The translations under genes and the position numbers were made by a program. Below the pieces are notes generated by a model. The model worked only from the letters and a program-made list of their open reading frames with translations, made no database searches and was not told the DNA's origin. From assembly GCA_016291435.1 (NCBI GenBank), contig JAEEXH010000003.1:1-64000 (forward strand): a DNA stretch of 64,000 nucleotides, written 5' to 3'. Shown here piece after piece: positions 14,553 through 26,750 of the stretch. Positions within the stretch are counted from its first letter, which is position 1, and every line of letters begins with the position of its first letter. Source of the DNA: Oscillospiraceae bacterium (GTDB lineage: Bacteria > Bacillota > Clostridia > Oscillospirales > Ruminococcaceae).

Positions 14553-15047
14553 TTATCTGTTGTCCACAGGCTCAGGGTAGAGATCGTGATGCGTCAGGCG
14601 CTCCCATGCGACCTGCTCCCATTTCGTCCCCGGCATGCCGTAATTGCAGTAGGGGTCGATCGAAATGCCCCCGCGCGGCAGGAATTTGCCCCACACCTCA
14701 ATATAGGCGGGCTCCATCAGCCGGATCAGATCGTTCATGATGATGTTCACGCAGTCTTCGTGGAAATCGCCGTGATTGCGGAAGCTGAACAGATACAGCT
14801 TCAGCGATTTGCTCTCGACCATCTTCACGCGCGGCACATAGGAAATGTAGATCGTCGCGAAATCGGGCTGCCCCGTAATCGGGCACAGGCTCGTGAACTC
14901 CGGGCAGTTGAATTTGACAAAGTAGTCGCGCCCCGGATGCTTGTTTTCAAAGGTCTCCAGCACGGAGGGGTCGTAGTCGGTCGGATATTTGACATGCTGA
15001 TTGCCGAGCAGCGTGATGCCCTCCTGCGTCTTGTCGCGTTCGCTCAT
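14553..15047 (-). CDS. queF: NADPH-dependent 7-cyano-7-deazaguanine reductase QueF
   Basis: [47 protein letters not shown]. Confidence 0.95.
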
Positions 15048-15062
15048 GATGTGCTCCTTTCG

Positions 15063-15506
15063 TTATGTCGTGCGGGTGTCAAGATATGCTTTCAGCGTGC
15101 GCATCGCTTCGAGATAGCCCGGGAGTCCCTTGCCCTTGACTGTCCCGATGCATGCCGCACGGATATACGAGATTTTGCGGAATTCGTCGCGTGTGTCGGG
15201 GTCGGAGATGTGTACCTCAACAGTCGGAATCTGCACCGCCTTCACCGCATCGAGAATCGCGACGCTCGTGTGCGTATACGCCGCGGGATTGATGACAATG
15301 CCGTCTGCGGTACCGCGTGCCTCCTGAATCCAGTCCACGAGCGTCCCCTCATGATTGGTCTGACGGCACTCCGCCGTGATGCCGAGCGATTCCGCTTCCT
15401 GCGCGATCATCGCCGTGAGATCCGCATAGGTCTGCGTGCCGTAATGCTCCGGCTCACGCACGCCCAGCAGATTCAAATTCGGTCCATTCAGCACGAGTAT
15501 ATGCAT
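15063..15506 (-). CDS. aroQ: 3-dehydroquinate dehydratase, type II
   Basis: MHILVLNGPNLNLLGVREPEHYG, NPAAYTHTSVAI, VEVHISD. Confidence 0.95.
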   Translation of the reverse strand: MHILVLNGPNLNLLGVREPEHYGTQTYADLTAMIAQEAESLGITAECRQTNHEGTLVDWIQEARGTADGIVINPAAYTHTSVAILDAVKAVQIPTVEVHISDPDTRDEFRKISYIRAACIGTVKGKGLPGYLEAMRTLKAYLDTRTT

Positions 15507-16743
15507 CAAAATCCCTCCGGATCTCCGCCGCCGCATCCTCGGGCGTGCGGTTATTTTCAATCGCGCGGTCGGCAAACTGCTCATAGAGCGGCATGCGCAC
15601 CGCCGCCATTTTGTCAAGGTCGGCGTTTAGCGAGAGCGGCCGCCCCTCGCGGCTGAGCTCTGCAGTCGGCCGGCAGATCTGATAAATACGGCCGTTGCTG
15701 CGAAGCGGCGCGTAATTCTCAGAGCGCGTCACAACGCCGCCGCCGGTCACGAGAATCACGCCGCGCATCGCACTGCATTCCGCCGTGACGAGGTGCTCGA
15801 CCTCGCGGAAGCCCGCTTCCCCGGATGCCGCAAAGATCTCCGGAATGCTCTTGCCCGTGCGCTGCACGATCTCCGCGTCAATGTCAACGACCGTTCTGCC
15901 GGTCAGCGTGCCGAGCGCTTCACCGATGGTCGTTTTGCCGCTGCCGGGCATTCCGATCAGCACAATGTTCTCTGCATCACGCTGCATCTTCGCGCCGATT
16001 TCCGCGATCTTGCTGTCTGGAATCGGCTGCCCGAAGAAATGCTCCGCTGCCTGCTTTGCCTGTGCAACGAGCATCGTGAGACCGCCGGCATAGGGGATGC
16101 CGAGCTGCTCTGCCTGCAAGAGCATGGCCGTGCGCTGCGGATTATAGATGACATCCGCGACACCTTTGAGGTGCGGGAATTTCGTGAGATCGACCAGCGA
16201 CTTGCCCGCCTTCGGATACATGCCGACGGGCGTTGCATTGACGATCAGCGTGGTGCTGTCATAGAAAAGCGGCAGATCATCGTAATTATGCGCGGTGCCG
16301 GAAATGTCGAGCACATCAAGCGATGCACAGCCGTCCAGCCGTGCAACCGCCTGAATGGTCTGCGACACGCCGCCGTTGCCGAGCACCAGCACATGCTGCC
16401 CGTCAAATGAGATGCCCGCCGCACGCATCATGCAGCGGAAGCCGTAAGCATCGGTGTTATAGCCCTTCCAGCCGCCGTCTTGCTGCCGTACAAGCGTATT
16501 GACGCTGCCGATCTCCTTTGCAAGCGGATCAAGCTCCGCACAGAGCGGAATGACATCAATTTTATATGGAATTGTGACATTGAGCGCTTTCAGGCGGGTA
16601 TCCGCAAGAAATGCAGACAGCTCCTCCGGCTCAAGCTCATAGAGCGAATAGTGCGGATTGCCGAGCGCTGCGTGAATCTCAGGCGAGATACTGTGCCCGA
16701 GCTTTCGCCCGATCAAGCCGTATGGCGTTTTGAATCCGGTCAT
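15454..16743 (-). CDS. aroE-aroK: Fused shikimate dehydrogenase - shikimate kinase
   Basis: AroE YGLIGRKLGHSISPEIHAAL and VLGNGGVSQTIQA, then AroK IVLIGMPGSGKTTIGEALG, DIDAEI, VTGGGVV in one frame. Confidence 0.93.
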   Translation of the reverse strand: MTGFKTPYGLIGRKLGHSISPEIHAALGNPHYSLYELEPEELSAFLADTRLKALNVTIPYKIDVIPLCAELDPLAKEIGSVNTLVRQQDGGWKGYNTDAYGFRCMMRAAGISFDGQHVLVLGNGGVSQTIQAVARLDGCASLDVLDISGTAHNYDDLPLFYDSTTLIVNATPVGMYPKAGKSLVDLTKFPHLKGVADVIYNPQRTAMLLQAEQLGIPYAGGLTMLVAQAKQAAEHFFGQPIPDSKIAEIGAKMQRDAENIVLIGMPGSGKTTIGEALGTLTGRTVVDIDAEIVQRTGKSIPEIFAASGEAGFREVEHLVTAECSAMRGVILVTGGGVVTRSENYAPLRSNGRIYQICRPTAELSREGRPLSLNADLDKMAAVRMPLYEQFADRAIENNRTPEDAAAEIRRDFDAYTRAEWTEFESAGRA

Positions 16744-16858
16744 AATGTGCCTCCGTACAAATCAGGTTCATTTATGTGACAAATTATTCGATATTTTCGT
16801 ATCATCGCAGAATACAGTAACGCAAACAATCACATTGCAATATGAATATGATTACAAA

Positions 16859-18007
16859 TCATCCCGTGATCTCAGAGTAGTTGCCGAGCAGAATGAGCGA
16901 GTCGCAGGAGCGTTCCAGCTCACAGAGCAGCCCGAGCACACCCTCCTGATGCAGATTGCATTCAAGATCCATGAAGAAGCGGTAAGAGAAATTTGTGCCC
17001 GGAATCGGGATACTCTCCAGCTTGCACATATTGATGCCGACAGCCGAAATTTTTGCAATCATATGATAGAGCGCACCGGGGGAGTTCGCGCAGTTGACCA
17101 TCAGGCTCAGGCGCACCGCACCCGCGAAGCATTTTGCGCCCTTCCGGATACAGAGAAAGCGCGTATCGTTCACATCCTGATTCATGATCGACTCGCCGAC
17201 CACGGTGAGACCGTAGAGCTTCGCGCAGCTTTCGCCCGCAATCGCTGCAACAGTCGGGTCATGTGCTTCTGCCGCACGCTGCGCCGCATGCGCTGTGCTC
17301 GTGCAGGGAATCACATCGACGCTGCCGAGCGAAGCAATGAATTTGCTGCACTGTCCCGCCGCCTGCTCATGCGTATAAATTGTGCGTATCTGCGAAATAT
17401 CCGCGTCACTTTGCCCGAGCAATACATGACGGATCAGGAGCCGGACGGAGCGGACAATGGTAATATCCGGCTCACGAAGCAGGTCATACACCGCACGGAC
17501 AGATCCGTATGAGCTGTTCTCGACGGGCAGAATGCCGTACTGACAAAGCCCAGCCTGCACCGCCTGCACGACTGCGCGAAATCCGTCCAGGAAGACGACA
17601 TTGCCGCGCGGGAACAGCCTGTCTGCCGCCGCACCTGCGTGGCAGCCCTCCACGCCCGAGACCGCAATGCGCCCTGTCTGCGGGAAAACGGCTTCCTCCT
17701 GCGCACACATCGCAGCCACACGCGCCGCAACATTTGTCGCGGGAATGAGCTGTGCCGCCTGCCGCGCACGGGAAAGCTCCAGCATCGTGCGCCAGAGCTG
17801 GTGTGCATAGTCACCGTACTCCGTGCCTGCATTTTCGCGCACGCGCATCAGAATCTCACGCTCGCGTGCAGGGTCATAGAGGGGACGCGAAGGATCGCGC
17901 TTTTTCACATCGGCGACTTGGTCAATCAGCGCCATGCGCTGCAAAAACAGCTCGAGGAGCTGACGGTCAACGCCGTCGAGCTGTTCTCTGATCTCTGGTA
18001 AATTCAT
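16859..18007 (-). CDS. pheA: Bifunctional chorismate mutase / prephenate dehydratase
   Basis: N-terminal chorismate mutase (IREQLDGVDRQLLELFLQRM), prephenate dehydratase VENSSYGSVRAVYDLL, C-terminal ACT domain NSPGALYHM..LESIPIPG. Confidence 0.93.
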   Translation of the reverse strand: MNLPEIREQLDGVDRQLLELFLQRMALIDQVADVKKRDPSRPLYDPAREREILMRVRENAGTEYGDYAHQLWRTMLELSRARQAAQLIPATNVAARVAAMCAQEEAVFPQTGRIAVSGVEGCHAGAAADRLFPRGNVVFLDGFRAVVQAVQAGLCQYGILPVENSSYGSVRAVYDLLREPDITIVRSVRLLIRHVLLGQSDADISQIRTIYTHEQAAGQCSKFIASLGSVDVIPCTSTAHAAQRAAEAHDPTVAAIAGESCAKLYGLTVVGESIMNQDVNDTRFLCIRKGAKCFAGAVRLSLMVNCANSPGALYHMIAKISAVGINMCKLESIPIPGTNFSYRFFMDLECNLHQEGVLGLLCELERSCDSLILLGNYSEITG

Positions 18008-18107
18008 ATGGTTTCTCCTTTATTTGTAAGCCGTTAAGGTTCATGCGTGATGAGGTTCCGGACGGAACAAACGCATTACAATCGCTGCACAAATATGCGC
18101 ACAAAAA

Positions 18108-18662
18108 TCATAACAATATTGCTTCTTCTCTCAGAATGCAGAAGCATTTTTCACCTTCCGGCAAAGCGCCCGCTCTGCGAAAGCGCTCCACCGTATCAGT
18201 CGGATGCAGCAGGGATTTCTCAAGTACGCGAACCGATTTCGTATTCTCTTCGCGTGCATATGCTTCGAGCCTCACAAAGTCGGTCTCCGCAAATGTCCAG
18301 CGGATTACGCCGCGGAGCGCTTCTCCGGCAAAGCCTTTGCCCCAATGGTTTTGTGCAATGCAATATTCGATTTCCGCTGTGCGAATATCATCGTAAACGC
18401 GGCAGAATCCGATCTGACCGATACCCTCTCCCGTGTCACGGAGATGAATCGCCCAGCGGTAATAATCGGGGTCGGCATACGCTGCAAGATACTTGTGCAG
18501 CAGCTCCCTGACCGCTTCTTTGTCAGGATAAACAGGCTCACCGTATTCCGTCTGCACCGCAGGATCCGATGCCCACTGCACCATATCCGAAAGATCATTC
18601 TCATTGAACGGGCGAAGAATCAGGCGCTCTGTTATAATGACAGATGTTGTTTTGCAGCGCAT
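18108..18662 (-). CDS. GNAT family N-acetyltransferase (RimJ-like)
   Basis: TERLILRPFNENDLSDM, IGFCRVYDDIRTAEIEYCIAQNHWGKGFAGEAL. Confidence 0.85.
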   Translation of the reverse strand: MRCKTTSVIITERLILRPFNENDLSDMVQWASDPAVQTEYGEPVYPDKEAVRELLHKYLAAYADPDYYRWAIHLRDTGEGIGQIGFCRVYDDIRTAEIEYCIAQNHWGKGFAGEALRGVIRWTFAETDFVRLEAYAREENTKSVRVLEKSLLHPTDTVERFRRAGALPEGEKCFCILREEAILL

Positions 18663-18663
18663 T

Positions 18664-19770
18664 TCAATCCTCCGCAATATCAGACAAATCATACCCGCTG
18701 CAAAGCAGCACATCAAGCATTACAAGCGCAGCACAAGCCTCGATCACCGGGACGGCGCGTTGTGCAATACACGGGTCATGTCTGCCGTGAATTTCAAGCT
18801 CCGCATTCTGAAGAGAAGAAAGCGAAACGGAGCGCTGTTTCTGCGATATGGAGGGCGTCGGTTTGATGCCGACCGTGAAGCGCACAGGCATCCCGGTCGT
18901 GATTCCGCCGAGAATTCCGCCGTTTCGGTTCGTCTCAGCGGCAACCTTGCCCGCATCCATGCAGAACGGATCATTTGCCGCAGAACCGCGCATATCAGAA
19001 AGTGCAAAACCGTCGCCGAATTCGACGCCTTTCACCGCCGGTATTCCGAACAGCACACGCGCAAGCCGGTTTTCGATCCCGTCAAACATCGGGTCACCGA
19101 GCCCCGCAGGGACGCCTGTTACGGCGCATTCAATCCTGCCGCCGACGGAATCCTGCGCCTCACGCGCCGCAAGAATCGCCTGCTGCATCGCACGCCCGGC
19201 ATCGTCCGAGATCACAGGAAACATTTTCCCGGCAATCTGTGCAAACAGCGCAGCGTCGGGAGACAGCGAAAATCGCTCATCCTGTACGCCTTCGACGGAC
19301 AGAAGATGCGCACCGACATGGATATTGCACTTTGCAAGCATCTGTTTTGCGATGCCGCCGGCAGCACAAATCGGGGCAGTCAGCCGCCCGGAGAAGTGCC
19401 CGCCGCCGCGCATATCCGCGTTGCCATGCCACTTGACATAGGCAGAGTAATCTGCATGCGACGGCCGCGGTATATCCACAAGATTCTTATAATCCGAAGA
19501 TTTTGTATTTGTGTTCGCAATCTGAATGCACAACGGGAAGCCGTTTGTTTTGCCGTCGGTCACACCTGATACAAACACCGGGACATCCGGCTCTTTGCGC
19601 GAGGTTGACAGCGCGTTTCTGCCGCCCTGCCGCCGCTCCATAAAGCGCATCAGTGCATCCGTATCAATCGGAAATCCGGCGGGAAATCCGTCCGCCAATG
19701 CGCCGATTCCTGCCCCGTGTGATTCGCCGAAAACGGATATTTTCAGACGCTCTCCAAATGCTGACGCCAT
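18664..19770 (-). CDS. aroC: Chorismate synthase
   Basis: FGESHGAGIGALADGFPAG, RPSHADYSAYVKWHGNADMRGGGHFSGR. Confidence 0.97.
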   Translation of the reverse strand: MASAFGERLKISVFGESHGAGIGALADGFPAGFPIDTDALMRFMERRQGGRNALSTSRKEPDVPVFVSGVTDGKTNGFPLCIQIANTNTKSSDYKNLVDIPRPSHADYSAYVKWHGNADMRGGGHFSGRLTAPICAAGGIAKQMLAKCNIHVGAHLLSVEGVQDERFSLSPDAALFAQIAGKMFPVISDDAGRAMQQAILAAREAQDSVGGRIECAVTGVPAGLGDPMFDGIENRLARVLFGIPAVKGVEFGDGFALSDMRGSAANDPFCMDAGKVAAETNRNGGILGGITTGMPVRFTVGIKPTPSISQKQRSVSLSSLQNAELEIHGRHDPCIAQRAVPVIEACAALVMLDVLLCSGYDLSDIAED

Positions 19771-19781
19771 CGTTTCACCTC

Positions 19782-20225
19782 TCAGAATTGTTTTACGAGT
19801 GATACATGATTTTGCAGTACATCAAAGCCGTTCCGCAGATAGAATTTGTACGCAGGCATGTCCCGGTCAGTTGCAAGGAAAATATGTGTAACACCGATAG
19901 ATTTCACATGATCTACGATCTGCTTTATAAAATCTGAACCGATGCCTGCACCCTGCATGCCGCGGCGAACAAAAAGCTCAAAAATGTAGTATTCCGTTCC
20001 GCTGCACCAATGGATCATCGAGCCGAGCGACACTGCGAGCAGTTCATCGTTTTCATACAATCCGATGCAGCAGGAATTTCGGTTCAGCATGAGATCTTCA
20101 ATATAAGCGGTGAGCTGTTTTTCATCGCTCCAGTCATCGTTCCACGGCGGGGCTGTGAATACATCGCGGAACATGGTTCTCACCGTTTCAAATTCCGTAT
20201 CGGAAAGCCTCGCAATGTGACGCAT
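19782..20225 (-). CDS. GNAT family N-acetyltransferase
   Basis: YIFELFVRRGMQGAGIGSDFIKQI acetyl-CoA motif. Confidence 0.85.
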   Translation of the reverse strand: MRHIARLSDTEFETVRTMFRDVFTAPPWNDDWSDEKQLTAYIEDLMLNRNSCCIGLYENDELLAVSLGSMIHWCSGTEYYIFELFVRRGMQGAGIGSDFIKQIVDHVKSIGVTHIFLATDRDMPAYKFYLRNGFDVLQNHVSLVKQF

Positions 20226-20227
20226 TG

Positions 20228-21517
20228 TTATGCTCCTCCCTCAGGAATTGTAATTATCCCGCCGAGTGCAATATAATCATCAAAAAACTGCGGATAGGAT
20301 TTATTTACGGCTTCCGCACCGAGAATCGTAACCGGTTCCCGGCAGCAAAGCGCAGCAATCGCCGCAGCCATCACCAGGCGGTGATCGTTTTGCGCATCGA
20401 CTGTGCCGCCGCGAAGCTGTCCGCCGTACACGGTCAGTCCGTCGGCATACTCATCCACATTTCCGCCGAGATCACGGAGCATCTGTGCAGTTGACTGCAA
20501 TCGGTCGGACTCCTTCAGCCGGAGACGCTCAGCTTTCACAAATTCGCTGTTTCCTTCCGATACAGCCGCTTTCACTGCAAGGATCGGCAGCAGGTCGGGG
20601 ATCGCGTCCATCGCTTCCGTAATGTAGCGATTCTGTCCTCTCGCAGCGGACAATCCCGCAGCGTTTTCCTGCACAGCCGCGCCGCTCTCACGCAGAATCC
20701 GAAGGATGGCCCGGTCCCCCTGTGTCGATGCGGTATCGAGTCCTGTGACGCAAACCGCTGCATTTTCCGCCTGCTGTACCGCTCCGGCTGTGAGCCAAAA
20801 TGCTGCGTTCGACCAGTCTGCGTCTACGGAAAGTCCTTCCGGCATATGCAGTCTCTGTTTCCCCCGAATGTGATAGCACAAACGTGAATCTTTTGTTGAT
20901 ACGTATATTTCCGCACCAAACTCACGCAGAACGCGCAGCGTCAGATCTACATAGGCCGCAGATTGCAGCGCGGTTGTCAGCCGGATTTCGCTGTCCTCCC
21001 GACACAGCGGAAGCGCCATCAGCAGCCCGCTTAAAAATTGCGAGCTGACATTTCCTTCGATTTCATACACTCCGCCGCGCAGATTCCCATTTGCGTGCAG
21101 CGGCAGATGTGTCTCGTCAAAATGTACGCCATGTACGGACATTGCATCCGTCAGCGTTCCGATCGGGCGCTCCGGCAGTCTGCCGTGCCCTGTCACAGCA
21201 ATGTCGCCGCATACCGCCATCGCAACCGGCAGCAGGAAGCGAAGCGTCGAGCCGCTTTCTCCGCAGTCCATGTCTGCATGCGGCTGCTGTTTGATCGGCG
21301 TAATGAGGATGCGGTCCGTTGTCTGCTGAAATACTGCGCCGAGCGCTTGCAGGCATCGAACCGTCGCCGCAATATCGTCGCAATACGGTTCCCGAAGCGG
21401 AAGTGCGCCGCCGTTTTCCGAGAGTGCCGCACAGATCAGCTTTCTGTGCAGATCAGATTTGGACGGAATCGCCGCGACTGTTCCTGAGAGCACGGACGGA
21501 TAACAAGTGACGTTCAT
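20228..21517 (-). CDS. aroA: 3-phosphoshikimate 1-carboxyvinyltransferase (EPSP synthase)
   Basis: IPSKSDLHRKLICAAL, DCGESGSTLRFLLPV, VKAERLRLKESDRLQ; ATGA overlap with aroB. Confidence 0.95.
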   Translation of the reverse strand: MNVTCYPSVLSGTVAAIPSKSDLHRKLICAALSENGGALPLREPYCDDIAATVRCLQALGAVFQQTTDRILITPIKQQPHADMDCGESGSTLRFLLPVAMAVCGDIAVTGHGRLPERPIGTLTDAMSVHGVHFDETHLPLHANGNLRGGVYEIEGNVSSQFLSGLLMALPLCREDSEIRLTTALQSAAYVDLTLRVLREFGAEIYVSTKDSRLCYHIRGKQRLHMPEGLSVDADWSNAAFWLTAGAVQQAENAAVCVTGLDTASTQGDRAILRILRESGAAVQENAAGLSAARGQNRYITEAMDAIPDLLPILAVKAAVSEGNSEFVKAERLRLKESDRLQSTAQMLRDLGGNVDEYADGLTVYGGQLRGGTVDAQNDHRLVMAAAIAALCCREPVTILGAEAVNKSYPQFFDDYIALGGIITIPEGGA

Positions 21518-22584
21518 GCCTGCCCCTCCAGCCCGTCTGCGAACAGCGCTTCCAGATCGGAAAGCGCGATCTTCTCCATGCGGCATCTGCCGATCATCTC
21601 CGGCAAAATCACTGTGATTCCGCTGCCTGCCGCCTTCTTATCCAGCGCTGCGATCTCCGCCATTTCATGTGCTTTATATGGGCAAACGGTTGGCAGATCC
21701 GCACGCTCGAGTGCATGCAGAATTCTCGTAAGTTCGCTTTTTTGAAGGATTCCGCGCTTCACGGCTGCGCGTGACATCATTGCAATGCCGATGCCGACTG
21801 CATGCCCGTGTGAGATGCCGAAATCGCTGAGCCGCTCGATCGCGTGCGCCGGTGTGTGACCGAAATTCAGCAGCTTCCGCACGCCTTTTTCCGTCGGATC
21901 CTCCATGACAATTTTCGATTTGTAGATCACAGAGCGCACGATGATCTCCTCATAGCTCGATGCCGGATCTCCGGTCTCGTAGATTGAAAACAGTGCCGGA
22001 TCATCCAGAACGCCGTGCTTGATCGCTTCCGCACCGCCGTCTGCAATCTCATGCGCGGGGAGCGTTTTCAGCGTATCCACATCGCAATATACTCCAATCG
22101 GCTGATGAAAGAGCCCAGCCAGATTCTTGCCGTGTGCAAGGTTCACTGCGGTCTTGCCGCCGACAGACGCATCGACTGCCGCAAGCAGCGTGGTCGGGAT
22201 CTGCACGAATCGGATCCCGCGCAGATAGCAGCCCGCCGCAAAGCCGGTCAGGTCGCCGATGACACCGCCGCCGAGCGCAACCGCCAGGTCCGTGCGCGTC
22301 ATGTGCGCCTCACAGAACGCTTCCAGCAGCGCGCCGAAGGTCGAAACGGATTTGCTCTCCTCGCCCGCCGCGACAACATGCGTATATACCGAAAAGCCCG
22401 CATCTGCGAGTGATTTCTGCACGCGGCCGAGATAGAGCGGCGCGACATTCGTATCCGAGACGATCATCACGCGGCAGGGCTTCATCTCCGCTGCAAGCGT
22501 TTCACCGACGGTATCCAGCAGCCCTGCGCCTGTCACGATCGGGTAGGTCTCGCCCTCCGGCGTAGTCAAAATCTGTTTATTCAT
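21514..22584 (-). CDS. aroB: 3-dehydroquinate synthase
   Basis: ALGGGVIGDLTGFAAGCYLRGIRFVQIPTTLLAAVDASVGGKTAVN. Confidence 0.97.
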   Translation of the reverse strand: MNKQILTTPEGETYPIVTGAGLLDTVGETLAAEMKPCRVMIVSDTNVAPLYLGRVQKSLADAGFSVYTHVVAAGEESKSVSTFGALLEAFCEAHMTRTDLAVALGGGVIGDLTGFAAGCYLRGIRFVQIPTTLLAAVDASVGGKTAVNLAHGKNLAGLFHQPIGVYCDVDTLKTLPAHEIADGGAEAIKHGVLDDPALFSIYETGDPASSYEEIIVRSVIYKSKIVMEDPTEKGVRKLLNFGHTPAHAIERLSDFGISHGHAVGIGIAMMSRAAVKRGILQKSELTRILHALERADLPTVCPYKAHEMAEIAALDKKAAGSGITVILPEMIGRCRMEKIALSDLEALFADGLEGQA

Positions 22585-23347
22585 CCTTATCCTCCGGCTG
22601 ATAATCCCGTTCAAAATCTGCGGAATTCGCTATGCGGACTGCGTCTTCCAGCGTGCCTGCACTGATGATTGCGCTTGCACAGCGGTTTTTGTCTTCCTTA
22701 TCGTAGAGCTCCACCAGAATGCGGTAATCCTTTCGGGTTCCGTTCGACTCGCCGTAGAGGGTATAATACCCGATGCCGTGCGCTGTTTCGAGCGGATAGC
22801 CCTCTCTGCCCATCGACGTCCAGAGCTGCTCCTTGCTGTTCATCATCTGGAGGATCGGCCGCCAGGAGCCGTGTTTTGTCAGCTTGATGTCCTTCGGCGT
22901 GAGGTTCAGGATCAGATTATACATGTCATAATTCGTGACTGGCTTTTCCCGTTTGATCGCGCTGACAAAGCGGTCATAATCCTTCTGCGACAGGCCGTCG
23001 CCGCCGATGAACTGGAACCCCTCGGGATCATCGTCGTGATTGATAAAGATAATGGCCCAGCCCGCGTCGGATCTGTACGCGCGCAGGGATTTCGACTCCG
23101 TTTCCTTCGGCTTCATATCTGCCGGCAAGGAGATGCTCAGACCGCGCTCCGAGATCCGCTGATAATCAGACGGGATCTCCAGATCCGTATACGGCGCTGC
23201 GATCAGCGTCTTGTTCAGAATCTCCGGGTCGATCTTATGCTTGATGAGCAGATAGACCGGCAGTGTCGGGACGATTGCCCAGAGCAGCAGCACGGCGGCG
23301 AGCACTCCGCCGACGATGCCGAGAAACACTTTCGTTCCTGTTTTCAT
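22577..23347 (-). CDS. Membrane-anchored hypothetical protein inside the shikimate operon
   Basis: N-terminal TM MKTGTKVFLGIVGGVLAAVLLLWAIVPTLP then ~220 aa soluble domain; 8-nt overlap with aroB; TM start with upstream GGAGGAAAG. Confidence 0.75.
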   Translation of the reverse strand: MKTGTKVFLGIVGGVLAAVLLLWAIVPTLPVYLLIKHKIDPEILNKTLIAAPYTDLEIPSDYQRISERGLSISLPADMKPKETESKSLRAYRSDAGWAIIFINHDDDPEGFQFIGGDGLSQKDYDRFVSAIKREKPVTNYDMYNLILNLTPKDIKLTKHGSWRPILQMMNSKEQLWTSMGREGYPLETAHGIGYYTLYGESNGTRKDYRILVELYDKEDKNRCASAIISAGTLEDAVRIANSADFERDYQPEDKDE

Positions 23348-23358
23348 CTTTCCTCCGA

Positions 23359-24198
23359 TCAGTTGCCGCCCGCCGATGCCTTTGCGATTCTGCCTTCCTT
23401 CAGGCATTCGCGCAGCGCATCCGCGTCGTTGTTTTCGAGTGCTTCGAGATATGGCTTCAGGTTGTCGATCAGGATGCGGAGCTCCTCCGCAAGATATTCC
23501 CGGTTGTCGAGCATCAGCTCTGTCCACATATTTTCGTCCAGGCGTGCCACGCGGGTCAGGTCGCGGAAGCTGCCCGCCGAGAATCCGCGGCGCTTCTGTG
23601 CGGTCGGCGACTTGACATAGGCGCCCGAGACAATGTGCGCAAGCTGCGAGGTATAGGCGATGATGCGGTCGTGCTCGTCGGGCGTTGAAAAGGTGAGATG
23701 CGCAAAGCCGATGTCGGTGAAATAGTTTTTCAGCAGCTCCAGCATATTGAGATCTGTCCGCGCATCGGGCGTCAGGATCATCGAAGCACCGTCAAACAGC
23801 GAATCCGTTGAGTTGACAAATCCGCCGGTCTCCTTACCCGCCATCGGATGCCCGCCGATGTAATAGTAGCCGTACTGCTCCGCGAGTGCGCCCATCTCCG
23901 TGCAGACTGCACGCTTGACGCCGCAGATGTCCACAACCGTGCATTTTCCGCGCCCGAGCACCTCCGCATGCGCCTTTGTCCACGCGATCGCTGCGCCCGG
24001 TCTGAGCGCCACAATCACAAGGTCACAGGTTTCGAGCAGCTCATCCGTGAGCGCCTTGTCCATTGCGCCGGTCATGCGTGCAAACATCATGACCTCCTGG
24101 TCAAGGTCATAGCCGTAGACCGTATGTAATGTGCGTGATTTCGTTGATTTTGCATAGGAACCGCCGATCAGTCCCAAGCCGATGACTGCAATATTCAT
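23359..24198 (-). CDS. tyrA: Prephenate dehydrogenase
   Basis: MNIAVIGLGLIGGSYAKS Rossmann, GGHPMAGKETGG. Confidence 0.92.
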   Translation of the reverse strand: MNIAVIGLGLIGGSYAKSTKSRTLHTVYGYDLDQEVMMFARMTGAMDKALTDELLETCDLVIVALRPGAAIAWTKAHAEVLGRGKCTVVDICGVKRAVCTEMGALAEQYGYYYIGGHPMAGKETGGFVNSTDSLFDGASMILTPDARTDLNMLELLKNYFTDIGFAHLTFSTPDEHDRIIAYTSQLAHIVSGAYVKSPTAQKRRGFSAGSFRDLTRVARLDENMWTELMLDNREYLAEELRILIDNLKPYLEALENNDADALRECLKEGRIAKASAGGN

Positions 24199-24980
24199 CC
24201 TTCCGCTCCTATCTGTATGTCGAACGCAATATTGTCCGATTTCTCCGCGTGCAGCTCTGTCCACGCAGGACTGAATCCGCTCCGCACCGCATTCCGCGCC
24301 GATGCCAGATTGCACCACGCGCAGCAGTAGAACGGAACTTTTCCGCGTTTCAGGATCTCTGCCGCAAGCTGTGAGGTCAGTGCCGCAGCGATGTATTTTC
24401 TGCGGTATTCCGGCAGCACATCCACGCCGATCTGCCACATCTCACCGCAGTCTGCCGAGCAGCCCGCAAGTCCGATCAGCCTGCCGCCGTCATAAGCACC
24501 GACGCCGAGCACATCGAGCTCCCGGCGCTTTTCGCAGAGCGCGTTCGACCACTCCGGCCGGTAGAGCTCCGCGAAATCCGCCTGCGTGAGCAATTTCGTT
24601 TCATAAATTGAGGGCAGCGCTTCAAGCCTTGTGAGGTCAGGCAGCCAGTATTCCGCCGTCCGCGAGACCGATAAGCCGTGCGCATGCAGGCGCTTTTCCA
24701 GCGCATGGATATACGGCGCATCCAGCCAGTATTCCAGCGGAACCTTCGCCGCATATTCCCGCGCAAGCTCCGCATATGCTTCAGCGGTCGCCGCGACAAT
24801 GTTGTGCCCGTAGCTGACCATGCTGAATTCCGCCGGCTGCGGCAGATATTTCCTCGCGCCGTCCGATTTCTGCGCACGCACGGTCACCGGCGTCTCCCGC
24901 AGGAAATCCTCTGGTGCACAGCACATGTCGATCGCCGACTGCCTGAGCGCAGTGTCAAGCAGCTGTCTGTTTGTCATCAT
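24195..24980 (-). CDS. GNAT family N-acetyltransferase
   Basis: GVGAYDGGRLIGLAGCSADCGEMWQIGVDVLPEYRRKYIAAALTSQLA; ATGA-type overlap with tyrA. Confidence 0.8.
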   Translation of the reverse strand: MMTNRQLLDTALRQSAIDMCCAPEDFLRETPVTVRAQKSDGARKYLPQPAEFSMVSYGHNIVAATAEAYAELAREYAAKVPLEYWLDAPYIHALEKRLHAHGLSVSRTAEYWLPDLTRLEALPSIYETKLLTQADFAELYRPEWSNALCEKRRELDVLGVGAYDGGRLIGLAGCSADCGEMWQIGVDVLPEYRRKYIAAALTSQLAAEILKRGKVPFYCCAWCNLASARNAVRSGFSPAWTELHAEKSDNIAFDIQIGAEG

Positions 24981-24989
24981 ATCGGATTC

Positions 24990-25997
24990 TTACGCATCTG
25001 CGAGATATGCGTGCAGTGCGCGTGCCCGCTTTGCAATCGCCGCAAAGGTCTCCGGGTTCACCGACTGCGGCCCGTCCATGACCGCATGCTCCGGGTCGTG
25101 ATGCACCTCCAGGCTCAGACCGTCGGCACCCGCTGCAACTGCCGCCGGTGCGATCTGCGGCACCAGCCAGGCACGGCTGACCGCGTGGCTCGGGTCCGCG
25201 ATGATCGGCAGATGCGTGAGCCGCCGCAGAATCGGAATCGCCGTGAGGTCGAGCAGATTGCGCGCAGAGGGCTCAAAGGTGCGGATGCCGCCCTCGCAGA
25301 GAATCACATTCGGATTGCCGGAGGACATGATATATTCCGCCGACATGAGCCATTCCTCATAGCTTGCGTCACGCCCGCGCAGCAGCATAACCGGCTTTTC
25401 CTGTGTGCCGAGCGCCTTCAGCAGCGCAAAATTCTGCATATTGCGTGCACCGATCTGAATCAGATCGACGTCGGCAAAGAGCGGAAGCTGTGCCGTTTCG
25501 GTGATCTCCGCCGCGATCGGCAGACCCGTCTCCTGCCGTGCGGCCTTCAGCAGCGCGATGCCTTCCGCGCCGAGTCCCTGATAAGCATAGGGGGAGGTAC
25601 GCGGCTTGAATGCGCCGCCGCGGAGAATATCCGCGCCGGTTTCCTTCACCTGCCGTGCGATGGCAATGATCTGCGCCTCGCTTTCGACCGTGCAGGGGCC
25701 TGCGATCATCGCGAAGCTGCCGCCGCCGATCTGCACGCCGCCGACCGATACGACGGTATCCTCGGGGTGAAACTCCCGGTTTGCATGCTTATAGGGCTCC
25801 TGCACGCGCTTGACATCCTCCACGATATCGAGCGCATTGATCAGATTCGCGTCGATGGCTGCCGTGTCGCCGACCAGCCCGAGGATCGTTCTGCTCGTGC
25901 CCACGCTCTTGTGAATCTGAATCTGCTTTTCCTCAAGCCAGGCGATCAGGCTGTCGAGCTGCGCCTGATTCGGATTCGGCTTCAAAATGACGATCAT
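24990..25997 (-). CDS. aroF: 3-deoxy-7-phosphoheptulonate synthase (DAHP synthase, N-terminal ferredoxin-like/ACT-like type)
   Basis: MIVILKPNPNQAQLDSLI, MIAGPCTVESEAQI, LRGGAFKPRTSPYAYQGLG, LCEGGIRTFE. Confidence 0.95.
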   Translation of the reverse strand: MIVILKPNPNQAQLDSLIAWLEEKQIQIHKSVGTSRTILGLVGDTAAIDANLINALDIVEDVKRVQEPYKHANREFHPEDTVVSVGGVQIGGGSFAMIAGPCTVESEAQIIAIARQVKETGADILRGGAFKPRTSPYAYQGLGAEGIALLKAARQETGLPIAAEITETAQLPLFADVDLIQIGARNMQNFALLKALGTQEKPVMLLRGRDASYEEWLMSAEYIMSSGNPNVILCEGGIRTFEPSARNLLDLTAIPILRRLTHLPIIADPSHAVSRAWLVPQIAPAAVAAGADGLSLEVHHDPEHAVMDGPQSVNPETFAAIAKRARALHAYLADA

Positions 25998-26021
25998 TGC
26001 TGTTCCTCCTGCAATAAAAAT

Positions 26022-26052
26022 CGCGCTGCCAGCCGGTTTGACTGTCAGCGCG
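26022..26052 (-). terminator. Intrinsic terminator / attenuator in aroF leader
   Basis: minus strand CGCGCTGACAG-tcaaaccgg-CTGGCAGCGCG followed by ATTTTTATT, 25 nt before aroF ATG. Confidence 0.8.
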
Positions 26053-26098
26053 TCGTTGTCATAGATCGGATCGTGGCGTGCGCACCAGCGATCTCATC

Positions 26099-26200
26099 TT
26101 ATGCCGCACAAATTTCAGCCAAGCCAAAGGAGACCTTATCTGCATCATAGATAAAGCCGTAAAATCGATAGCTGAAATAAGAAGCAGCTTTGCGGTTCAT
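26099..26200 (-). CDS. Tyr/Phe-rich leader peptide MNRKAASYFSYRFYGFIYDADKVSFGLAEICAA
   Basis: 33 codons between a consensus promoter and a terminator upstream of aroF; 7 of 11 consecutive residues (Y8-Y18) are Tyr/Phe. Confidence 0.7.
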   Translation of the reverse strand: MNRKAASYFSYRFYGFIYDADKVSFGLAEICAA

Positions 26201-26233
26201 TTGCTTACGCACCCTTTCCCAGTGATTAGCTAT

Positions 26234-26262
26234 ATTATAACACATATGCGGCAAAAATGCAA
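26234..26262 (-). promoter_or_regulatory. Sigma-A promoter of the shikimate operon
   Basis: minus strand TTGCAT-17 nt-TATAAT. Confidence 0.75.
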
Positions 26263-26328: not shown

Positions 26329-26460
26329 GCGCCCCCGCTTTTCTGATCCCCCATCCCCTGTCAGTGTCATTTATATTGACGGGGTACCGAAACGGAGAGA
26401 GAAGAGATAGGGAAAGGGTATTATAGGATGTATGTCGAGGTGATTCTGCAAAATGCCGCT
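26329..26460. repeat. Imperfect direct repeat, copy 1
   Basis: cgcgcccccgctt..tgtcagtgtcatttatattgacggggtaccga..ggaaagggtattataggat..tgattctgcaaaatgccgct, matches copy 2 at 26561-26694. Confidence 0.85.
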
Positions 26461-26485
26461 GAACCGCGCAGCGGAGCGCCGGAAT

Positions 26486-26562: not shown

Positions 26563-26694
26563 CGCCCCCGCTTTCCTGATCTCCCATCCCCCTGTCAGTG
26601 ACATTTACATTGACGGAGTACCGATACAGAGAAAGGAAAGATAAGGAAAGGGTATTGTAGGATATATGTCGCGGAGATTCTGCAAAATGCCGCT
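26561..26694. repeat. Imperfect direct repeat, copy 2
   Basis: cgcgcccccgctttcctgatctcccatccccctgtcagtgacatttacattgacggagtaccga..gattctgcaaaatgccgct. Confidence 0.85.
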
Positions 26695-26750
26695 GAGCGC
26701 TGAAATCTGCTCTGCGCAATTATGATTTCCTTCACAGTCAAATCGAAAAA

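Follow-up and report, generated by a model that had tools for sequence, protein, structure and literature searches.

A candidate Tyr/Phe leader-peptide attenuator in front of the shikimate operon of a Ruminococcus-like bacterium and its relatives

What controls entry into the shikimate operon of a Ruminococcus-like member of the Bacillota from gut or rumen, and has the short, Tyr- and Phe-dense open reading frame in front of its first gene, aroF, a part in that control? We examined the locus on the minus strand of a 64,000-nt stretch of contig JAEEXH010000003.1, referred to below as the window. Direct reading of that strand gave, in order, an extended -10 promoter, a 33-codon ORF, a hairpin, an intrinsic terminator, a ribosome-binding site, and aroF. 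Comparative sequence analysis and modeling of ribosome stalling make it very probable that this leader is a classical ribosome-mediated transcription attenuator.

Layout of the leader and its operon

The leader promoter, which the initial annotation had read as TTGCAT-17-TATAAT, is present at 26234 to 26262 (minus strand), with TTGCAT at 26262-26257, a 17-nt spacer, and TATAAT at 26239-26234; the -10 element is TG-extended (TGT-TATAAT). Relatives within the genus carry the same layout before the leader, TTGCAA/T, about 17 nt, and TGTGCTATAAT. A simple consensus scan listed neither the promoter nor the terminator of the window. The promoter escaped it because of its poor -35, since TTGCAT shares three of six positions with TTGACA; the terminator escaped it because its tail, ATTTTTATT, follows a mismatched stem, and was detected by folding. 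Just upstream of the promoter lies a 108-nt direct repeat with G-rich flanks (26355-26462 and 26589-26696, 88% identical and 234 nt apart). Peptides from DNA resembling it also occur near a T-box locus of the same genome (L172, see below), so the repeat may be a dispersed one.

The leader ORF, MNRKAASYFSYRFYGFIYDADKVSFGLAEICAA, spans 26099 to 26200 (minus strand), from an ATG at 26200 to a TAA ending at 26099. A Shine-Dalgarno (SD) sequence, AAAGGG, precedes the ATG by about 11 nt and is weaker than that of the relatives. Residues 8 to 18, YFSYRFYGFIY, contain the seven Tyr or Phe residues in 11 for which the ORF was first singled out (Y8, F9, Y11, F13, Y14, F16, and Y18). The same kind of ORF is found in 56 leaders, with a mean of 9.1 Tyr/Phe per 33 amino acids; Phe makes up 15.7% and Tyr 12.0% of their residues, and both occur in nearly all. 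A model-free scan of 59 other aroF upstream regions, from samples of the order and the phylum, found in 22 of them an ORF that follows an SD and has six or more Tyr/Phe within 11 residues; in 18 of the 22 a terminator comes after it. Such an ORF appeared in only 1 of 590 dinucleotide shuffles and in none of the 59 reverse complements. Tyr/Phe-dense ORFs before aroF thus exceed chance.

Alignment of the relatives gave the pattern that the initial annotation had proposed to look for: the Tyr/Phe positions are kept, with Tyr and Phe interchanging, while the N- and C-terminal residues drift. Within the genus the peptide core is strongly conserved (EYRFYGFIYY..DKV); across the order, the forms EYRFYGF, EYFYYGF, EYRYFSF, and YYYYFSF illustrate the interchange. 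In four leaders (L009, L028, L035, and L036) a stop codon directly follows DKV, and nucleotides resembling GGTTTGGCTGAA are still present beyond it. Because these nucleotides, the segment called 2 below, persist where translation stops before them, the apparent conservation of FGLAE near the C terminus lies at the level of the RNA.

Downstream of the leader, aroF (24990 to 25997, minus strand, ATG at 25997) encodes a 3-deoxy-D-arabino-heptulosonate-7-phosphate (DAHP) synthase with an N-terminal ferredoxin-like domain; it matches Pfam PF00793 and PF18152, and NCBIfam PRK08673 above cut-off. The rest of the operon (14553 to 24980, minus strand) follows in the order GNAT, tyrA, unknown, aroB, aroA, GNAT, aroC, GNAT-like, pheA, aroE-aroK, aroQ, queF-like. 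The product of tyrA is a prephenate dehydrogenase, pheA combines chorismate mutase with prephenate dehydratase, and aroE-aroK is a fusion. Every shikimate step is covered, which bears out the original description of a complete shikimate operon, and tyrA and pheA add the Tyr and Phe branches; the operon makes both amino acids whose codons are clustered in the leader. Three GNAT acetyltransferase-like genes are interspersed (24195-24980, 19782-20225, and 18108-18716), the first of which adjoins aroF in some relatives too. Between tyrA and aroB, the protein encoded at 22577-23527 (minus strand) probably has an N-terminal membrane segment and gave no Pfam match.

Alternative folds of the leader RNA and the proposed switch

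The leader has a fold z-score of -3.2. In minimum-energy folds, segment 1 (ATTTCAGCTATCGA, 26164 to 26177, minus strand, as for all that follow), overlapping the run of Tyr/Phe codons, forms a stem with segment 2 (TTTGGCTTGGCTGAAATTTG, 26109 to 26128), which corresponds to codons FGLAE and after and lies inside the ORF; the counterpart of segment 1 in relatives is CAGC.GAAUACCGA. Within this 1:2 stem, and likewise within the ORF, is an inner hairpin, GGCTTTATC/GATAAGGTC (26132 to 26158). The intrinsic terminator extends from 26013 to 26052, just before the aroF ribosome-binding site, where it had first been noticed: a stem-loop at 26052-26022, of 12 pairs with one A.G mismatch and -19.3 kcal/mol, followed by ATTTTTATT. 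A strong intrinsic terminator occurs at the same place, between ORF and first gene, in 56 of 58 leaders. Its 5' arm and loop contain segment 3 (CAGTCAAACC, 26035 to 26044), the 3' arm of a candidate antiterminator whose 5' arm, GGCTTGGCTG (26125-26116), is part of segment 2. Two alternative partners are therefore open to segment 2: segment 1, in the 5' portion of the Tyr/Phe run, and segment 3. The hairpin just past the leader stop codon, GATCG.TGG/CCA.CGATC (26069 to 26093), exists as initially annotated, and by eye most relatives have one there, of unrelated sequence. We rejected it as a key element, its sequence not being conserved, and treat it as a spacer hairpin; the decisive element appears to be segment 2, inside the ORF.

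That mutually exclusive folds connect the ORF with the terminator, a possibility raised at the outset, was supported by covariation. In the 54 leaders where a terminator had been located, the mean energy of the 2:3 duplex was -17.9 kcal/mol with the leader's own partner and -13.5 kcal/mol (standard deviation, 0.37) with partners swapped between species, a difference reached in 0 of 5,000 permutations. Eighteen leaders outside the range of the covariance model, among them leaders from Lentisphaeria, Lachnospiraceae, Acholeplasmataceae, and a Spirochaete, gave -16.0 kcal/mol against -11.4 kcal/mol, again with 0 of 5,000 permutations. Relatedness of the sequences can inflate such tests; yet the changes are many and mutually compensating, as in L050 (CGTTTGACTG:CAGTCcAAACG), L051 (TTGGCTTTGGCTG:CAGCTGAAAGTCAA), L055 (TCGTTTGGCTG:CAGTCAAACGG), and L114 (GGTTAATTTG:CAGATTAACC). 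The inner hairpin, found independently by RNAalifold, has 97.8% of its cells paired in the alignment and three pairs changed on both sides. Covariation of the outer 1:2 stem is weak, with one changed pair in helix 1 and none in helix 2; our claim of covariation is limited to the inner hairpin and the 2:3 antiterminator, and excludes the outer 1:2 pairs. The window's own antiterminator, which has a C.A mismatch and an energy of -12.4 kcal/mol, is weaker than any other in the genus.

We propose the following sequence of events. Transcription would start near 26227, and a ribosome would translate the leader ORF of 33 codons. Under a shortage of charged tRNA-Tyr or tRNA-Phe, the ribosome would stall on the Tyr/Phe run and cover segment 1; segment 2, so freed, would pair with segment 3 before segment 4 is made, and with this antiterminator formed the polymerase would continue into aroF and the shikimate/Phe/Tyr operon. 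With both amino acids plentiful, the ribosome would move over segment 2, or depart and allow 1:2 to re-form, and 3:4 pairing would end transcription at about 26013-26020. What we infer in this scheme is that the ORF is translated, that transcription does terminate there, and that the switch responds to Tyr and Phe.

A stall model was applied to 53 leaders, each folded as far as the end of the terminator loop, with segment 4 not yet made, and with a ribosome footprint set on each codon in turn. From the start of the A-site codon the footprint extended 18 nt upstream and 14 nt downstream, and folding was taken to be at equilibrium; these are simple assumptions. The window leader without a ribosome gave 0.0 expected 2:3 pairs in this model. 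With the A site at codons 6 to 17 (A6 to I17) it gave 6.3 to 10.6, apart from a dip to 1.7 at R12; the value fell to 0.1 at Y18 and was zero thereafter. The ON codons of this leader include Y8, F9, Y11, F13, Y14, and F16. Forty-five of the 53 leaders switch likewise, and the other 8 form the antiterminator even without a ribosome. Tyr and Phe account for 37% of ON and 23% of OFF codons over the 53 leaders, a disparity that none of 2,000 circular shifts reached. In silico, then, a stall at the aromatic sensor codons is what would open the antiterminator by freeing segment 2.

Other readings of the leader were weighed against this evidence. The same RNA switch might be thrown by nascent-peptide arrest of the TnaC kind, in which a specific peptide stalls the ribosome upon free Tyr, free Phe, or another ligand. 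The strong conservation of the core EYRFYGFIYY..DKV within the genus is what such a peptide would leave; across the order, however, Tyr and Phe swap freely and spacing and length vary, and RNA pairing explains much of the remaining conservation (the codons for G15, F16, and I17 pair with those for D21 to V23, and FGLAE is segment 2), so that we consider arrest improbable. A less remote reading, though still an unlikely one, is that the switch senses Tyr alone or Phe alone, the codons of the other being incidental. Skewed relatives point that way, such as MFNSKNAVYYYYYRR in an Acholeplasmataceae leader (L163) and the Phe-heavy MKRYRLFTAEYFFFGFAFFF in L066, against which stand the presence of both residues among the ON codons of the window leader and in nearly all of the 56 leaders; that Tyr and Phe are both sensed is, in our judgment, probable.

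Two further readings would make the ORF a bystander, and both we regard as very improbable. An ordinary 5' untranslated region might combine an unrelated small ORF, of which intergenic regions hold many, with a terminator that acts constitutively on a transcript from upstream; but the ORF has a promoter immediately before it, the order promoter, ORF, terminator, aroF is kept across many families, and the antiterminator covaries in a manner specific to each leader. Least probable of all is a T-box, or another leader that binds a ligand or tRNA, in which the ORF arose by chance. Bacillota commonly have T-boxes, and this genome has them elsewhere, but the leader locus gave neither a match to RF00230 nor an TGGNACCGCG bulge, in agreement with the initial annotation, and relatives keep the ORF as a reading frame, complete with SD and Tyr/Phe codons. 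Against Rfam (release 15) at the gathering score, no leader family (Phe, Trp, His, and others) matched anywhere in the window and no entry matched the leader; at E values up to 1 the search of the locus returned nothing but one irrelevant weak match. By direct reading, the leader contains isolated GAG/TAG triplets but no TRAP-type array of (G/U)AG repeats. A ribosome-mediated attenuator thus remains our preferred reading.

Occurrence among relatives and an antisense transporter layout

AroF relatives were collected from 61 genomes and the DNA upstream was read. The same kind of leader stands directly before aroF at 15 loci of the genus, the window included, and at two loci elsewhere in the order, in other families. 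With R1, a covariance model built on the leader core, matches were obtained in 27 of 30 genus genomes and, across the order, in 47 of 394 genomes (25 of 169 genera); the ORF and terminator are thus conserved in close relatives, as the initial annotation required of a real attenuator, and also well beyond the genus. Nearly all matches outside the genus whose loci were examined lie immediately upstream of aroF, and the gene after aroF in these loci is often tyrA or aroB. At one locus (L078) the same Tyr/Phe leader precedes tyrA rather than aroF. A broader model, R2, gave a few matches in other families of the class, and further leader loci were found in Lachnospiraceae, Anaerosphaera multitolerans (Tissierellia), Lentisphaeria, Acholeplasmataceae, and Spirochaetes. 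Three Lentisphaeria loci (L111-L113) pair an AroF 59 to 60% identical to that of the window with a Tyr/Phe leader and terminator; possibly, AroF and leader were acquired together by horizontal transfer. The window leader is among the more divergent of the genus and scores 63.8 bits, below most relatives (up to 92.5 bits). A relative such as L033 or L040 would be a better subject for the bench, because the window leader is divergent and its antiterminator the weakest of the genus.

Twelve genomes of the genus carry, upstream of aroF on the opposite strand, a gene for an SNF-family Na+ symporter (PF00209; about 457 amino acids) that points away from aroF and towards the leader (loci L240-L250 and L252). 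In the 10 of these where leader and aroF share a contig, leader and terminator stand just past the 3' end of the SNF gene, 1.6 to 1.9 kb from aroF; in the other two, G005 and G011, they fall on separate contigs. At L241, for example, numbered in the orientation from leader to aroF, the leader core is at about 200, the antisense SNF gene at 361-1735, and aroF at 1870. By eye, a probable SNF promoter, TTGACG-17-TATGAT, lies about 50 to 60 nt from aroF in most, and no obvious promoter was seen for aroF itself. A single gain of this layout was unsupported on the AroF tree, which gave six changes, at least two of them forced by well-supported branches.

Direct control of aroF by the attenuator is not obvious in these genomes. 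Their attenuators seem to be functional still, as suggested by the compensating changes retained in L038, L048, L051, L055, and L056. The layout is possibly a noncontiguous operon; if so, the attenuator would drive the operon by letting transcription run on for about 1.5 kb, antisense to the SNF transporter gene, and one amino acid sensor could influence synthesis and transport together. We offer only tentatively, and as one joint proposal that we think less probable than not to hold in full, that Tyr/Phe leader-peptide attenuation is a widespread but little-described default for such aroF genes (in Oscillospirales, other Bacillota, Acholeplasmataceae, Lentisphaeria, and some Spirochaetes) and that the subset with the antisense transporter reads through to aroF.

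Relation to known attenuators and T-boxes

T-boxes occur elsewhere in the genome of the window: a match before an XRE-like gene (L169) reaches the cut-off, and T-box-like leaders before valS (L170) and trpE (L171, motif near 1711, trpE from 1865) score 86 to 87 bits, just under it. A partial T-box precedes a gene that by eye resembles an aspartyl-tRNA synthetase gene (aspS-like; L172). A single cell thus seems to employ two kinds of RNA sensor, a T-box-like leader for trpE, of the Trp branch, and a leader peptide for the Phe/Tyr operon. The leaders described here provide a testable, mapped candidate switch for Phe and Tyr synthesis in gut and rumen Bacillota, and an RNA family, unmatched in Rfam release 15, for which a sequence model and evidence of covariation are now at hand. 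The family is also a good natural test of attenuator evolution, because codons, antiterminator, and terminator evolve semi-independently over many species.

The closest mechanistic counterparts are the pheL/pheA and trpL leaders of Proteobacteria, in which the first gene is preceded by a leader peptide dense in end-product codons, alternative 1:2, 2:3, and 3:4 pairings, and an intrinsic terminator. The leader before aroF shares the product-rich codons, the three alternative pairings, and the intrinsic terminator. It differs in standing before a whole shikimate, Phe, and Tyr operon, in its mixed Tyr/Phe codons, in its Bacillota host, in a segment 2 that lies inside an ORF with a drifting stop codon, and in having no Rfam sequence match.

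The initial annotation had set this mechanism, as one of Proteobacteria, against T-box or TRAP control in Bacillota. Leaders of this kind are indeed described mainly in Proteobacteria; that Bacillota lack them is too strong, because there are precedents at ilv in Staphylococcus aureus, at hisS/hisZ in Bacilli, and at aroF in Acholeplasma. Outside Proteobacteria and Actinobacteria, leader-peptide attenuation of S. aureus ilv-leu is supported genetically (PMC5794164), and that of hisS/hisZ in Bacilli is predicted (PMC2965389); in both, the same mechanism replaces T-boxes in the same phylum, for other amino acids and genes. The tyrosine biosynthesis operon of the Bacillus cereus group is under T-box control (PMC2494555): the pathway is the same, and read-through occurs with uncharged cognate tRNA, but the leader there binds tRNA and has no ORF, and its like is absent before aroF in the window.

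Nearest by gene is uORFC-13-1, before aroF of Acholeplasma, for which attenuation was proposed by its authors; its 24 sequences come only from Acholeplasma and from unassigned environmental DNA (PMC8632094). Compared by gene and layout only, it shares with our leaders a promoter, an SD, and a short ORF that contains one Phe codon or more and is followed directly by an intrinsic terminator, and differs in having a run of Phe only, where ours are mixed Tyr and Phe, Clostridia-wide, and of other sequence and structure. The Acholeplasmataceae aroF leaders that we examined read AVYYYYYRR and similar. Our literature search, which covered few subscription journals, found no account of a Tyr/Phe leader of aroF in Clostridia. 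Given the published precedents, we class the leader under a known mechanism, not a new one; what is new is its breadth and its mixed Tyr/Phe codon content.
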